IMG/VR virus record: IMGVR_UViG_3300008113_000016
Location: 1-64,000 of that record
Direction: 5' to 3' (one strand)
Origin: a virus
Length of the DNA: 64,000 nt
The notes beneath the pieces were generated by a model that saw only the letters and a program-made list of their open reading frames with translations, searched no databases and was not told the DNA's origin. This document shows, one piece after another, positions 2,872 to 42,478 of this stretch; positions within the stretch are counted from its first letter, which is position 1, and every line of letters starts with the position of its first letter. The position numbers were made by a program, and so were the translations under genes.

Positions 2872-2903
2872 AGCCTCCTATGGTAAAATTACTATAGGAG
2901 GCT
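2872..2903 (+). terminator. 10-bp hairpin overlapping a promoter and a ribosome-binding site
   Basis: AGCCTCCTAT (2872-2881) pairs perfectly with ATAGGAGGCT (2894-2903) around a 12-base loop. The loop holds most of a TGGTAAAAT promoter box (2881-2889), and the right arm contains the AGGAGG ribosome-binding site of the next gene. On read-through RNA from the lysin gene the site would be paired. RNA started at the internal promoter (about 2896) lacks the left arm and leaves it free. Confidence 0.65.
2881..2889 (+). promoter_or_regulatory. extended -10 promoter of the lectin gene
   Basis: TGGTAAAAT matches the window-wide TGNTANAAT pattern. The predicted start near 2896 falls at the AGGAGG site, leaving a leader of only about 15 bases before the TTG start at 2911. 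Confidence 0.5.
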
Positions 2904-2910
2904 TCTACTT

Positions 2911-5352
2911 TTGTCTTATTCTGCAAATATATTAAAAGATGTTCCAACAAATGTTTATCCGCTTGATGAAACAAGTGGAACAGTTGCCTACAGCATAACA
3001 AACTGGACCCCCTCAAATGGATCTTATGTGTCTGGAAAGTTTGAAAATCGTGGATTGCCATTGGTATACGGAGGAAAGTACTCAACATATCTAACTGGAA
3101 ATAACTCTATAGGGCTTTCACTTCCAGCCCTTGGCTTTTTTACAGCCTCAAAACAAGACAATGATCATTCTCTAGAGTTTTGGCTTTCAATTGAAAAAAG
3201 CAAAGATACTGCAGTAAAGATTGTTGGAAAAAATTCTTCAGAGCATACTGGAATCTATGTTAAACAAAATCAAGTAATATTTAGGCTGCAAGAAGCAATG
3301 TGGTACAAAGAAGTTTCTTGTTATGTAGAGTCTTGGGAAAAGCCAGTTCATGTGGTTGCAAGATATCAGGATGGTAGTATTTCTTTGGTAGTAAATGGAG
3401 TAGAGTCTAAGGTTCGTAACCTAGACAAAACAAAACTAAGTTATTATCTTGGGGTAGCAGACACTCTAGACTTTTATGGTCAAACAACTAATCTTGGAAA
3501 GGTGGCAATTGATTCAGTAGCACTTTACGATCACGTTCTATCTTCAATTACCTGTAAGAGACACATGTTTTATGCTCAGGGATTTGACTCTCCAGTATCT
3601 TTCTTTACATCTAACTCTGCTTCATTCGAAGAGTACAGTTTAGACTTTTATAAGCCAAGCAAAACTCTTGGAGCACCACTACATGGAAATTGGCTTGAAG
3701 GGGTTACAGACAATCTTGTTGTTCATGACAACAAACTTGTTTTTGCATTAAAGCCAGAGGTAGAGTTTATAAATATTAATAAGGTTTCTATGATGTATGA
3801 TCCAACTGGCTTTACATTTTCAGATGGATGTTTTTTAAGATCAAAAGAAATTGGTTCGTTTTTAAAACTTGGTAATGGTGGTCTATCTGCAACAGTAAAA
3901 ATTACATCAATTCCAACTTCAGAAGAAGTAATAGCATCTATATCCGATGATGATACAAAGAGTAGCATGTCTATCAAACTAATTCCTTCTGGAGGGTCTG
4001 CAAAGTTTGCTGTAACCTATAACGATTTGATAAATGCAAAAAGTTACTCTGAAGAACTAGGTTCTGTGGCGGTAGATGGAAACTATGCAGTCTACTTCTC
4101 ATACGATCCAGAAAGACTTATTGCAAAAAGCATATCATCTACTGGAACTGTCGTAGAGGCTACATCAACATCTATATCTAGATATATTAGATTTGGCAGA
4201 AATGCAGAACTAAGAATTGGTGCAAGCCCATACTTTAACGAGTTAAGTAAAAACATAGAATCCTATAAAACCTTTAAGTCAGGAAGCGTAAACAATGTTT
4301 CAGTGCTAGACACTTGGACAAACCTAACAACATTTAATGCAATTGATACATATTACAAACTTTACACAGTTCATGCTGAATACGGAAACACTAAAGTAAA
4401 GCAAAAGGGTTCTTGGACTAAAACATACCCACTTTCTAGTATTGCCAATACAACAATAACAAATAACACTGCAACAACTAGAACAGGTATGATTCAGGCT
4501 TTTCTATCTTTTCCAGAAGTTAACTCTTCATCAAAGTATGTTACAGCAAAATATAAACTAGGATCAAATATAGAAACAGAGTTCTTTGACAATTCATTTT
4601 TAGACGGACTAAGTGAAATTGTAGTAACCAATCAGGGTCTAAAGATTACCTTTGACCTAGCAAGCGAAGATTATGAAAATCAACTTGTATTTTTGAAAGA
4701 GTTTTATCTTGTGTCTACTATCAAGCCAAATATTGGAGTCTTTGTTCCAAGCCGTGGAATTGGATCTTTTACAAAATCTAATACAGGAAAGTTTGTTGTT
4801 GAAAAAAGAAATGTTGGGGCATTAAGCCTGGGCAAAAATTCTGGTATCAGAATGTCTGGTGGTCCTATCATTGTTCAGTCAACATACGACCCACTAGCCT
4901 TTGAGTCAACTGAATCTATTAAAGTTCATGGAATAAATATGTTTGTTTATTTGGACTCTGTTACTTCTCCTACAGTTCTTACTTGGGGATCAAAAATTCT
5001 TACTCTATCCTCTGGAGCCGTTTCACCAGTCTCTGGAGCCACTGTGTACGTTGACGGTGTGTTGAACGGAACCGTTAAGGCTAAGACTTGGACAATGATA
5101 TCGGTTGCGCTTAGTACCTCAATAACAAAAGACACTGAATTTATCATTGGATCTGCAAACGAGTCTGCAATGGCAGTTAACTATGTATCTTTAATTCATA
5201 AACCATTTACACAATCATTAATTAATCAGTTTAGGTCAGTCTTTTCTGGTATTTTGTCTATTACTGGAACAGAAACTGGCATTAGAATAACAGAGCCTGC
5301 CAACTCTGCTATTGCTTACCCACTTACTTGGCAAACAGTTGCACAAATTTAG
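2911..5352 (+). CDS. LamG/concanavalin-like lectin domain protein, probable virion surface protein
   Basis: An 813-residue protein with no signal peptide, starting at TTG 2911 nine bases after AGGAGG. The N-terminal part (about residues 10-215) looks like a LamG/concanavalin-type jelly roll: an LDETSG opening, LEFWLSIE and, at the end, KVAIDSVALYDHVLS, which is the typical last-strand pattern. A second, weaker jelly-roll-like segment lies at about 670-790 and ends in VSLIHKPFTQSLI. Such domains bind polysaccharide, so it may be a head or tail decoration or an adsorption protein. It lies just before the portal gene, away from the tail fibre genes, and has its own promoter. The function is inferred from fold-level similarity. 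Confidence 0.65.
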   Translation: MSYSANILKDVPTNVYPLDETSGTVAYSITNWTPSNGSYVSGKFENRGLPLVYGGKYSTYLTGNNSIGLSLPALGFFTASKQDNDHSLEFWLSIEKSKDTAVKIVGKNSSEHTGIYVKQNQVIFRLQEAMWYKEVSCYVESWEKPVHVVARYQDGSISLVVNGVESKVRNLDKTKLSYYLGVADTLDFYGQTTNLGKVAIDSVALYDHVLSSITCKRHMFYAQGFDSPVSFFTSNSASFEEYSLDFYKPSKTLGAPLHGNWLEGVTDNLVVHDNKLVFALKPEVEFININKVSMMYDPTGFTFSDGCFLRSKEIGSFLKLGNGGLSATVKITSIPTSEEVIASISDDDTKSSMSIKLIPSGGSAKFAVTYNDLINAKSYSEELGSVAVDGNYAVYFSYDPERLIAKSISSTGTVVEATSTSISRYIRFGRNAELRIGASPYFNELSKNIESYKTFKSGSVNNVSVLDTWTNLTTFNAIDTYYKLYTVHAEYGNTKVKQKGSWTKTYPLSSIANTTITNNTATTRTGMIQAFLSFPEVNSSSKYVTAKYKLGSNIETEFFDNSFLDGLSEIVVTNQGLKITFDLASEDYENQLVFLKEFYLVSTIKPNIGVFVPSRGIGSFTKSNTGKFVVEKRNVGALSLGKNSGIRMSGGPIIVQSTYDPLAFESTESIKVHGINMFVYLDSVTSPTVLTWGSKILTLSSGAVSPVSGATVYVDGVLNGTVKAKTWTMISVALSTSITKDTEFIIGSANESAMAVNYVSLIHKPFTQSLINQFRSVFSGILSITGTETGIRITEPANSAIAYPLTWQTVAQI

Positions 5353-5370: not shown

Positions 5371-5379
5371 TGGTAGAAT
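5371..5379 (+). promoter_or_regulatory. extended -10 promoter with leaderless spacing
   Basis: TGGTAGAAT, then six bases, then ATG 5386. No ribosome-binding site is present. This is the clearest leaderless arrangement on the plus strand and would start the head-gene transcript. Confidence 0.6.
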
Positions 5380-5385
5380 AGGGTT

Positions 5386-5733
5386 ATGTCAAATAGAAAA
5401 CCACTAAAGCACAAAGTATCAGCAGTAGATGATGGCTTTGATTTTGGAGTATATGTATGGGCTTTGCCAGAGGGTGGCTTATTTAAAGACGACGATGGAA
5501 ATGTTTTAAACATTCCATCTATGAGACACGACATTGAAAAGATGGGCATTATAACAAAAGCAGCAGCCTATTGGGGTAGAGCAGATGGACATGCACAATT
5601 TCTTTCTGGAATAGGAAGAGCAACAGATGCTATGTATGCAGAAGATCAGGAAAGATTTGCACAAGGATTAACACCATACGGAGATATTGGAGCGTTTAGA
5701 GATGAACTCAGAAACTCAAGAAATAGACATTAA
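5386..5733 (+). CDS. hypothetical protein upstream of the portal, leaderless
   Basis: A 115-residue soluble protein that I cannot assign to a family. It has a short acidic patch (FKDDDGN), a helix with GRADGHAQFLSGIGRATDAMY, and an arginine-rich tail. The start ATG 5386 is placed by the -10 box ending six bases upstream. Its end overlaps the likely portal start (5702) by 32 bases, suggesting coupled translation. Its position as the first gene of the head operon fits a small head or packaging factor, but nothing in the sequence proves it. Confidence 0.7.
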   Translation: MSNRKPLKHKVSAVDDGFDFGVYVWALPEGGLFKDDDGNVLNIPSMRHDIEKMGIITKAAAYWGRADGHAQFLSGIGRATDAMYAEDQERFAQGLTPYGDIGAFRDELRNSRNRH

Positions 5734-9027: not shown

Positions 9028-10077
9028 ATGAGCGAAGATATTCTAGAAAAGGCTGTTGCTGCGGGAACCGTACTATCTCCACTAACATCTCCAGGTGCTA
9101 TGACAACATCAGGAGCAACTGGTGATACAGGTGGTGTATTGCTACCAGAGCAAAGCCGTCAATTTATTGACTACATGTTCGACCAGATGGTGCTTGCACA
9201 AGATGGTCGTCGTGTCACAATGCGTGGAAACACAATGGAAATGGATAAGATTAAGGTTGGAACTCGTCTAGTAACTAAGGCTACTCAGGCAGATCAGACT
9301 GGCGCAAACAAGGCTGCACAGTTTACAAAACTTGAAATCTCAACAACAAAGTTCCGTTTGGACTACGAACTCTCAACAGAATCCCTAGAGGATAATATTG
9401 AGGGTGCAGCATTGGAAGACCACGTTGTACGCCTAATGGCTTCACAGTTCGGAAACGATCTTGAGGACATTGCAATCAACGGTGCTGCTGACACAACTGC
9501 TGGCTACTATCCAACAACTCTTGATGGTTTCATCAAGAAGATTAAGGACACAGATGCTACAGGACATGAGGCTGCTGCTGCAGTCGCAAACGTCGATGCT
9601 GTATGGGATGTAACAACTGCTGGCGTAACTGCTGGTAAGAACACCCTTACACTTAAGGTTCTTGAGGACCTATATAACGCAATGCCTCGTAAGTTCAAGG
9701 TAAACCGTTCTGCACTCAAGTACTATGTAGGATCTAAGCACCTAACTGAACTTATTGCTGACCTCCGTAAGTTGGGCACAGTCCCAGAGGAAGTTGCAGT
9801 AAGAGTCATTGATGGTCAGGTCCCACGTCTAGGTGGAAACGCAGGTGCTCAATACCGTGTATTCGGTGTTCCAGTACTTGAAGTTCCTCTATACCCAGAC
9901 AACTACATTGACATTACTGCTCCTACAAACAGAGTTTGGGGATTCCAGAGAGATGTTACTGTACATCGTGAATTCAAGCCAAAGAAGGATACTGTAGAAT
10001 ATACAGTATATACACGCTTTGGTGTTCAGGTCGAAGAGAAGTCAGCAATTGCTTGGGCAAAGCCTAAGACTGCTTAA
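9028..10077 (+). CDS. major capsid protein (HK97 fold)
   Basis: A 349-residue shell protein. The pattern is that of HK97-fold capsids: a Gly-rich opening (GDTGGVLLPEQSRQFIDYM), a long E-loop-like stretch (GNTMEMDKI) and a core helix with LEDHVVRLMASQFGNDLEDIAING. It has no long N-terminal delta domain, which fits a scaffold fused to the protease. ATG 9028 is preceded by AAAGGTGGTGA, close to the full anti-16S complement; upstream in-frame codons lie inside the protease gene and are rejected. Arginine codons are mostly CGT/CGC (14 against 3 AGA by my count), unlike the neighbouring genes, as expected for the most highly expressed gene. A strong hairpin follows. Confidence 0.92.
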   Translation: MSEDILEKAVAAGTVLSPLTSPGAMTTSGATGDTGGVLLPEQSRQFIDYMFDQMVLAQDGRRVTMRGNTMEMDKIKVGTRLVTKATQADQTGANKAAQFTKLEISTTKFRLDYELSTESLEDNIEGAALEDHVVRLMASQFGNDLEDIAINGAADTTAGYYPTTLDGFIKKIKDTDATGHEAAAAVANVDAVWDVTTAGVTAGKNTLTLKVLEDLYNAMPRKFKVNRSALKYYVGSKHLTELIADLRKLGTVPEEVAVRVIDGQVPRLGGNAGAQYRVFGVPVLEVPLYPDNYIDITAPTNRVWGFQRDVTVHREFKPKKDTVEYTVYTRFGVQVEEKSAIAWAKPKTA

Positions 10078-10095
10078 TTTTTAAGACTCTTATTG

Positions 10096-10133
10096 GTGGG
10101 AGAAGAATTTATTTCTTCTCCCACTAATCTTTT
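10096..10133 (+). terminator. 12-bp hairpin terminator after the capsid gene
   Basis: GTGGGAGAAGAA (10096-10107) pairs perfectly with TTCTTCTCCCAC (10113-10124) around a TTTAT loop and is followed by a T-rich run. It would end most capsid transcripts; a new promoter box follows at 10141. Confidence 0.8.
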
Positions 10134-13279: not shown

Positions 13280-13918
13280 ATGGCTCGTAATAATAAAAAT
13301 ATTATCGTAGGTGCAGCAGCATTGTATCTTGGAAAGAACACTGACACTGTACCAGCACTTCCATCATTTGGAGCATCAGCAACTGCAACAGCAGCACTCG
13401 ATTCTTCAGCAGATTGGAACGAAGCAGGCTATACAACTGAAGGTATTGAACTTTCATTTGAACCAGATTACGGCGAAGTACAGGTTGATCAGTTACTAGA
13501 CGTAGCAAGAATTTTTAAGCAAGGTCAAAGAGTAATGCTCAACACAACACTAGCAGAAGGTACTCTTGAGAATCTTCTTTTGGTAATCGGAGGCGTTTCA
13601 ACAGATCTTGAAACTTCAACAATTAGCGGAAGCAAGTTTGACCGCACACTTGATATTAACGCAGGCGCACTTGGATATGCTCCAGTAGAGCGTTCACTAG
13701 TCGCAGTTGGTCCAGCACCATCAGCACTACTTGAGAACGTAACTGGCAAGACAAAGGCAGAGCGTGTATACCATGCATACCGTGCTCTTTCAATGGAGAC
13801 AGTAACTGTAGGAATCAAGCGCAATGAAGCAACAGTATTCCCAGTATCTTTCCGTCTACTCTCACAGAGTGTAAGCGGTAAAGACCTATACGGCAAGATC
13901 ATTGATCGTGTCTACTAA
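13280..13918 (+). CDS. major tail (tube) protein
   Basis: 212 residues. The pattern is that of siphovirus tube proteins: an N-terminal GAAALYLG strand, then YTTEGIELSFEPDYGEVQVDQ, a central TLDINAG segment, and the closing KRNEATVFPVSFRLL strand. The gene has its own promoter, a near-ideal ribosome-binding site, and a strong terminator directly after it. It is rich in CGT/CGC arginine codons (8 of 10 by my count), all signs of high expression. The position before the chaperone pair and tape measure is canonical. Confidence 0.85.
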   Translation: MARNNKNIIVGAAALYLGKNTDTVPALPSFGASATATAALDSSADWNEAGYTTEGIELSFEPDYGEVQVDQLLDVARIFKQGQRVMLNTTLAEGTLENLLLVIGGVSTDLETSTISGSKFDRTLDINAGALGYAPVERSLVAVGPAPSALLENVTGKTKAERVYHAYRALSMETVTVGIKRNEATVFPVSFRLLSQSVSGKDLYGKIIDRVY

Positions 13919-13938
13919 AAACTAAATATCGAATTTAG

Positions 13939-13974
13939 CAGGGTGGATAGGCAACTATCCACCCTGTTTTATTT
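13939..13974 (+). terminator. 12-bp hairpin terminator after the tail tube gene
   Basis: CAGGGTGGATAG (13939-13950), loop GCAA, CTATCCACCCTG (13955-13966), followed by TTTTATTT. A textbook intrinsic terminator with a GNRA loop. Confidence 0.9.
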
Positions 13975-41759: not shown

Positions 41760-42419
41760 ATGGCTGTAATTACAGGTCTCAAGAATATCCAAAAGGTTAT
41801 TGAGAAACCAAAGGGTGCAATGGATGCACCAAAAGCAACTTGGCTAAAACTAGAAGATGGTCAAGGAATCAAAGTACGTTTTATTAACGAAGTAGACGGA
41901 GACTCAAAGTTTTACGATGAAAATCGTGGTCTTGCTATTGTCGTTGCTGAACACACAAATCCAAAAGATTATCGTCGAAAGGCTGTTTGCACTATGGACG
42001 ACGAAGGTCGTTGCTATGGTTGCGAAATGGCTAGAAAAGAACCAAAGACTGGCTGGAAGGCACGTCTACGCTTTTACTGTAACGTTCTTGTTGACGATGG
42101 TAACAAGGATCCGTATGTTGCAATTTGGTCACAAGGTGTTGGTCCAAAGGTAACAAGCACAAATACAATCTTTGAATACGCATCCGACAACGGATCAATT
42201 TCAAATTTGATTTGGCGTTTAAAAAGAAATGGAACTGGAACACAAACAAATTATGTTCTAATTCCTATTGCACCAGACACAGAAACATTTGATTGGTCTG
42301 GAATTGAACCGTATGACTTGCAAAAGTCTGCAATTAGAAATGTAAACTATCCAGATCAAGAATCATTCTACATGGGCTTGATCGAAGATACAACAACCTC
42401 TACTGCTGTAGATTGGTAA
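41760..42419 (+). CDS. single-stranded DNA-binding protein (gp32-like)
   Basis: 219 residues. The protein resembles the zinc-containing OB-fold ssDNA-binding proteins of phages: KATWLKLEDGQGIKVRFI, then the Cys set AVCTMDDEGRCYGCEMA (C-x7-C-x2-C) that may bind zinc, and WKARLRFYCNVLVDD. The C-terminus is acidic (MGLIEDTTTSTAVDW), as in SSB tails that recruit partners. Its own promoter and the strong hairpin after it fit the high dose needed. It sits between primase and polymerase. Confidence 0.7.
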   Translation: MAVITGLKNIQKVIEKPKGAMDAPKATWLKLEDGQGIKVRFINEVDGDSKFYDENRGLAIVVAEHTNPKDYRRKAVCTMDDEGRCYGCEMARKEPKTGWKARLRFYCNVLVDDGNKDPYVAIWSQGVGPKVTSTNTIFEYASDNGSISNLIWRLKRNGTGTQTNYVLIPIAPDTETFDWSGIEPYDLQKSAIRNVNYPDQESFYMGLIEDTTTSTAVDW

Positions 42420-42426
42420 AAGATTG

Positions 42427-42456
42427 GGTGGGGAGTTTAGCCATTTACTCCCCACC
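42427..42456 (+). terminator. 10-bp hairpin after the SSB gene
   Basis: GGTGGGGAGT (42427-42436) pairs perfectly with ACTCCCCACC (42447-42456), loop of 10 bases. No U-tract follows, so it may be a weak terminator, a processing site or a 3' stabiliser that lowers expression of the polymerase gene. Confidence 0.6.
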
Positions 42457-42478
42457 TAACACAAACAGATAGGAAGAC

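Follow-up and report, generated by a model that had tools for sequence, protein, structure and literature searches.

We propose that the 45-nt gap separating the stop codon of a lysin-like gene from the TTG start of a lectin-like gene in a phage record (IMG/VR IMGVR_UViG_3300008113_000016; the window analyzed here is its first 64,000 nt) serves as a compact insulator that encloses a nested promoter and in which a hairpin that takes up nearly all of the gap would hide the Shine-Dalgarno (SD) sequence of the lectin-like gene in read-through RNA and possibly also terminate transcription. This is the likeliest of the readings that we weighed, and we give it a little better than an even chance. Polymerase arriving from the side of the lysin-like gene, or of the ribonucleotide reductase (RNR) gene, would copy both arms of the hairpin, and the read-through RNA, if made in amount, would fold into an 18-pair structure that hides the lectin SD and would be expected to block its translation. 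The T-rich tail of the hairpin may release some of the polymerase there. The lectin-like protein would be made from RNA begun inside the right arm, near position 2896, provided that a putative extended -10 box is a working promoter, and such internal RNA, being without the left arm, would leave the SD largely open. The hairpin itself would have arrived together with the insertion of the lysin-like gene.

The genes of the locus all lie on the plus strand. The RNR gene at 349-2277 (phrog_367) is of the B12-dependent type according to Pfam, and a short terminator-like hairpin with a T run is found just before it at 306-320. The lysin-like gene at 2344-2865 encodes a 173-aa protein that resembles phrog_15428, a family of unknown function, and the transglycosylase family phrog_12661; a Pfam search with this protein gave no match, and by eye its N-terminus is hydrophobic. 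The lectin-like gene at 2911-5352 encodes an 813-aa protein with a laminin-G/concanavalin-A-like domain (PF13385). The portal of the phage matches 357 records of annotated phages; the 20 highest-ranking entries among those listed all belong to Streptomyces phages 121-134 kb in size, with identities of 54-56%.

The Hairpin and the Sequences in Its Arms

Folding of 2872-2903 gives an uninterrupted 14-bp stem, 2872-2885 paired with 2890-2903, with one G-U pair and a 4-nt AAAU loop (-22.1 kcal/mol, z -6.8), and the wider region 2860-2930 folds at -29.6 kcal/mol (z -8.8), a value equalled by none of 200 shuffles. Past a 1x1 mismatch, an outer 4-bp helix (GUAG/CUAC, or GTAG/CTAC in the DNA) pairs 2867-2870 with 2905-2908, such that the full plus-strand hairpin spans 2867-2908 and totals 18 pairs. 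The initial annotation had described a 10-bp stem; the hairpin is real and its length was underestimated. Among 40 dinucleotide shuffles of the window, none produced a stem of at least 13 bp that contained six or more G-C pairs and closed a loop of 3-8 nt. The left arm (2872-2885) carries the anti-SD sequence CCTCCT at 2874-2879 and, just as the initial annotation had stated, the right arm (2890-2903) contains AGGAGG, at 2896-2901, with all six of its bases paired. The AGGAGG motif occurs below chance frequency in the window (13 found, 23.1 expected).

The AGGAGG precedes the TTG at 2911 by 9 nt, and a start at this codon agrees with the N-terminus common to the homologues, which is mostly MSYS or MSYT, with the tyrosine at position 3 invariant in all 17 aligned sequences and the methionine at position 1 present in at least 90%. 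At 29 of 30 other lectin junctions the start is ATG or GTG (L064 is ambiguous), and the TTG at 2911 also extends the T run behind the hairpin.

Because its single G-U pair turns into A-C on the minus strand, the hairpin folds better on the plus strand than on the minus strand (-29.6 vs. -24.2 kcal/mol), and this asymmetry fits an RNA element, as modelled, more than a palindrome acting as DNA. It bears on a DNA-level explanation in which a repressor binds the near-palindrome and thereby covers the lectin promoter. A 14-bp near-perfect inverted repeat that lies over a -10 box is what such an operator would look like, but one position breaks the symmetry of the DNA and is kept as G-U in the plus-strand RNA, and no second copy of the palindrome was found among the hairpins of the record with stems of at least 12 bp and loops of 3-8 nt, although this is a weak test as operators can be shorter. 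It was the strand-asymmetric G-U/A-C position that lowered our estimate of a DNA operator, which we now regard as very improbable.

Accessibility of the Shine-Dalgarno Sequence

Opening the six SD bases is computed to cost 15.6-20.1 kcal/mol when the RNA is of the read-through type (three RNAs modelled) and 4.7-4.8 kcal/mol when it starts at 2895-2897, where the residual 4.8 kcal/mol arises because the 5' end pairs with the downstream coding sequence. The earlier claim that the ribosome-binding site is blocked only in read-through RNA is therefore borne out by the difference in computed costs, but the internal RNA is not entirely free of structure. When 67 starts in the 96.5-kb phage record were ranked (open frames of at least 90 codons on both strands with an SD-like motif before the start codon), the lectin SD was the most costly of all to open at 17.9 kcal/mol, the next being 7.3 and the median 2.4, in a ranking for which the choice of starts was crude and part of the 67 frames are non-genes. 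Hence the models predict for upstream-started RNA what is seen in a T4-type gate, namely a stable hairpin that pairs the SD.

The stem begins only 1-6 nt past the lysin-like stop codon (2863-2865), a proximity that would also suit translational coupling, in which ribosomes finishing the lysin-like gene open the hairpin and the lectin-like gene is translated in proportion to it. With the RNA modelled as ribosome-covered up to 2875, corresponding to a ribosome at the lysin stop, opening of the SD still costs 12.6 kcal/mol, and coupling would moreover make a nested promoter unneeded. Coupling was considered and was marked down on account of this cost; we judge it improbable.

The Candidate Nested Promoter

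A putative extended -10 box, TGGTAAAAT, is present on the plus strand at 2881-2889, with the hexamer TAAAAT at 2884-2889 and the TG at 2881-2882. The hexamer begins in the last bases of the left arm and runs on through the loop, a position that had been correctly described in the initial annotation. RNA synthesis usually starts about 7 nt downstream of a -10 box, which would place the start near 2896, i.e., at the SD, and RNA begun there would be without the left arm. On inspection by eye, the box looks like a standard extended -10, but it has no -35 match and is absent from the 29 sites returned by a sigma-70 scan of the window. The motif TGGTANAAT occurs five times in the window where 3.3 are expected by chance, and AGGAGGNTTNTA, allowing two mismatches, is not enriched (65 found vs. 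67.5 expected). Taken by itself, the case for a promoter from the sequence of the nested box is weak.

Indirect support for an internal promoter is provided by the same gene in relatives. At 25 of 30 other distinct junctions a TATAAT lies within 45 nt before the lectin start, ending 8-15 nt before it; the background, from 20,000 random 45-mers taken from the portal- and lectin-search loci, is 3.1%, and the junctions compared with it are related sequences rather than independent ones. A promoter-like box directly before the lectin-like gene was therefore probably the old state. The box in the window is 21 nt from the start, vs. 8-15 nt in the relatives, and is thus out of register with theirs.

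Other promoter-like sites were seen in the window. At 5371-5388, TGGTAGAAT ends 6 nt before an ATG at 5386, which would put the first transcribed base at about the A of this codon and give a possible leaderless gene. On the minus strand, positions 12-39 contain a perfect consensus promoter (TTGACA-16-TATAAT with TG).

Terminator-Like Tail and Other Gene-End Hairpins

Directly past the extended stem is a T-rich tail, TTTTGTCTTATT, at 2909-2920 on the plus strand, which is terminator-like and overlaps the start codon. Counted from the extended stem its tail score is 4.03, attained by 0.095% of 20,000 random positions in the window, and counted right after the 14-bp stem it is 2.05, attained by 7.5% of random positions. 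A G+C stem followed directly by a T-rich tail, as in an intrinsic terminator, is therefore found for the extended stem and is weakly developed for the 14-bp stem, and a signal scan of the window also entered the hairpin as terminator-like. The phage has three further hairpins of 13-16 bp that follow a stop codon at a distance of 4-18 nt. The first (10092-10128, after the gene that ends at 10077) has a tail score of 2.30, and the second (13937-13968, after the gene that ends at 13918) is followed by a good terminator tail, scoring 3.11 from 13968 and 4.21 from 13966, where the last two pairs are uncounted; both are followed by a TATAAT and an SD that are outside the hairpin. The third (42424-42459, after the gene that ends at 42419) lacks a terminator tail, with a score of 0.01. 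None of these gene-end hairpins covers an SD. Another long hairpin occurs at record position 80299-80327.

The tail score, together with these other long hairpins behind stop codons, makes it a serious reading that the hairpin is an ordinary intrinsic terminator of the lysin-like gene, fitted into so small a gap that the promoter and SD of the next gene fall in its arms by chance. The hiding of the SD would then be a by-product with little effect, as most RNA would end at the tail. The score of the extended stem is comparable to that of the hairpin at 13937-13968, and two of the three other hairpins precede the same succession of TATAAT and SD, and hence a plain gene-end hairpin is a real alternative. 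On the other hand, the tail directly after the 14-bp stem is poor, the Ts adjoin the hairpin only when the stem is extended, and their run is broken by a G after four. The low scores at 10092 and 42424 indicate that such hairpins need not all terminate. A terminator does not require AGGAGG in its arm, yet here every base of the SD is paired. In addition, the stem is very near the lysin stop codon, and at such short distances ribosomes almost fully repress the Escherichia coli terminator tR2, which reaches maximal efficiency only beyond 27 nt from the stop, according to PMC4824070. If this rule holds in the host of the phage, translated lysin RNA would read through and the hiding of the SD would matter. 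Overall, we consider a simple terminator possible though rather unlikely. In our reading, the insulator would act on transcription, on translation, or on both, with the tail as a contributor. The core logic of the mechanism put forward in the initial annotation, that RNA from a putative lysin promoter would fold over the ribosome-binding site and RNA from the internal one would not, holds computationally, but that annotation overlooked the terminator-like tail and the other gene-end hairpins, as well as the lack of conservation described below.

The Junction in Relatives

Relatives were drawn from a portal search (the best 80 of 592 confirmed loci) and a lectin search (41 loci), a sample that is not a full census, and they contain 31 distinct lectin junctions, the focal one and 30 others. 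The focal junction occurs in the window and in a single near-identical contig (protein identity 99-100%), and only there does the lysin-like gene lie between the RNR and lectin-like genes. At 29 of the 30 other junctions RNR is directly upstream of lectin, its match ending 12-43 nt before the lectin gene, and hence there is no room for a lysin-like gene; the remaining contig (L016) begins too near the lectin gene for the upstream neighbor to be judged. The SD-hiding hairpin is absent from all 30, where the longest stem is 8 bp, and the opening cost is at most 7.2 kcal/mol at the 27 that have an SD motif (no SD motif was found at the other three, L009, L207, and L209). The hairpin is thus not a conserved RNA element kept by compensatory changes at these junctions, and its only other copy is in the near-identical contig. 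The comparison suggests that the lysin-like gene and the hairpin are probably both new at the focal junction. Homologs of the lysin-like gene elsewhere (L004-L008) have, by eye, no comparable hairpin within 150 nt behind them, with L007 ending about 10 nt past the match, and the 24 stretches in genome_contigs that fit the pattern of the lysin-like protein include no relatives.

The lack of conservation, along with a promoter motif that occurs at chance frequency, might also be taken to mean that the arrangement is a coincidence with no regulatory role, in which there is no internal start and lectin is expressed otherwise, e.g., by RNA processing inside the hairpin. Such an explanation would have to accommodate a stem with no counterpart in the 40 shuffles, an SD covered more strongly than those of the 66 other ranked starts, and a TATAAT before the lectin gene at five-sixths of the other junctions, and we give it little credence.

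Recurrence of the Layout in Viral Contigs

An earlier DNA pattern, CCTCCTATRGTANAAT, gave at least 119 matches in viral contigs, and among the matches listed GGAGG or AGGAG follows at a distance of up to 45 nt in 15 of 119, including the focal copy (L181). With repeats merged, L181 left out and GAGGA added, an SD-like motif is present in 18 of 88 among the matches listed, and in 10 of the 88 it is accompanied by a start codon. For control boxes lacking CCTCC the corresponding values were 35 and 22 of 373 (RGTANAAT) and 2 and 2 of 31 (TATRGTANAAT), and for places where CCTCCT stands alone they were 64 and 26 of 596. This excess is mild and the sample is biased, and we therefore relied on a later, fixed pattern: CCTCCT, 0-6 nt, TATAAT, 2-22 nt, AGGAGG, 7 nt, ATG. 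Two scrambles of the first hexamer, one of them CTTCCC, served as controls.

The fixed pattern matched viral contigs 63 times vs. 12 and 14 times for the scrambled controls, giving 26 clusters vs. 4 and 6, in which clusters were joined at 70% ungapped identity and are possibly not independent; the two controls share two clusters (L311 and L315) and together hold 8. A first clustering of the same 63 matches on longer text gave 29 clusters. The hexamer CCTCCT is itself commoner than the control hexamers, with 218 occurrences vs. 159 and 181 in the portal and lectin loci and 590 vs. 308 and 268 in the pattern loci, and hence hexamer frequency (a factor of about 1.2-2.2) explains part of the cluster excess but not all of it. 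By our criterion, 6 of the 26 clusters are divergent genes whose own SD supplies the CCTCCT, and 20 are not. Eleven of the 26 have a co-directional frame of at least 60 codons whose end lies either no more than 60 nt before the CCTCCT or slightly beyond it. The frame of L302 is only 6 codons long.

In the long RNA, opening costs span 0.7-20.1 for the 26 representatives and 2.6-14.8 for the four CTTCCC control representatives; in RNA that starts from the box, the spans are 0.1-5.5 and 0.6-5.2, respectively. The SD is barely hidden in L271 (0.7) and L301 (3.0), while the CTTCCC control cluster L313 is itself an SD-hiding hairpin (14.8), and the largest cluster of that control (L311, nine members) costs 11.0. 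Outside the searched hexamers, pairing sums to 88 over the 26 clusters vs. swapped-arm values that average 42.8 and peak at 78 (0 of 2000 reached the real total), where inward pairs were limited to 8 for the swapped arms and 12 for the real ones, a difference from which only L292 (10) gains, by 2; with equal limits the total is 86 and still exceeds 78. A helix of at least 9 bp is formed in 12 of the 26. A TATAAT is nested in a long-stem SD-hiding hairpin in L292, L299, L273, L250, L248, and L308, the last of which is a divergent pair.

There is therefore moderate evidence, from pattern counts and predicted pairing, that the layout recurs in viral contigs. A broader proposal, which we put forward tentatively as a possibility, is that promoters nested in an anti-SD arm constitute a recurrent phage insulator that evolved many times outside the T4-like phages and that allows a new gene to be inserted into an operon with the output of the downstream gene unchanged. 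At the focal junction, a lysin-like cassette would have entered between the RNR and lectin-like genes, and a terminator, a nested promoter, and an SD gate would be packed into about 45 bases.

Comparison With Known Systems

Transposases of IS10 and IS50 are guarded against read-through transcription as transcripts from outside fold and hide the transposase start, and this protection acts against host promoters at the end of the element. We know of no promoter nested in the hairpin arm in IS10 or IS50. Intrinsic (Rho-independent) terminators share with the focal hairpin a strong stem and a T-rich tail behind a stop codon, but the arms of the focal hairpin also contain the SD and the -10 box of the next gene.

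The closest parallels are in phage T4 and its relatives. In the T4 lysozyme gene e, as reviewed in PMC3014915, the longer RNA started upstream hides the ribosome-binding site in a hairpin, the late promoters lie shortly before that site within the sequence of the 5' strand and their RNA, without the 5' part, is well translated, and the effect of the gate is 100-fold. The focal hairpin is likewise predicted to hide the ribosome-binding site in upstream RNA and has a promoter-like box in its 5' arm. In T4, however, a phage late promoter sets the timing whereas the focal box looks like an ordinary extended -10. The focal stem also ends in a terminator-like tail, and the gene predicted to be gated is lectin-like rather than a lysin. 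In a second group, comprising I-TevI, I-TevII, I-TevIII, segB, Aeh1 mobE, and T4 soc, PMC2988022 describes a ribosome-binding-site hairpin that forms only in RNA from upstream promoters and an own promoter so placed that its RNA cannot form the hairpin. The mobE gene is embedded in a ribonucleotide reductase gene, according to a study cited in PMC2988022, and the inserted gene at the focal junction likewise adjoins RNR. In these I-TevI-type cases, the hairpin gates the invader itself, a homing endonuclease, whereas at the focal junction it would be the resident gene that is gated and its neighbor that is the newcomer. No phage examples beyond the T4 group were found in searches of an open-access library.

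By analogy, it is plausible that the mechanism suggested in the initial annotation matches that of T4 gene e and I-TevI, and since the principle of the gate is already known from phage T4, the focal case is probably not a new kind of separator. If our proposal is correct, a T4-type translation gate is present in a different kind of phage, one whose portal is closest, among annotated records, to those of Streptomyces phages, and its position is the very point at which a conserved pair of genes is interrupted by a foreign one. This would suggest a way in which phages insulate resident genes from newcomers, and the survey, with 26 clusters vs. 4 and 6 for the controls, points to a layout more widespread among phages than the few cases in T4 would indicate.
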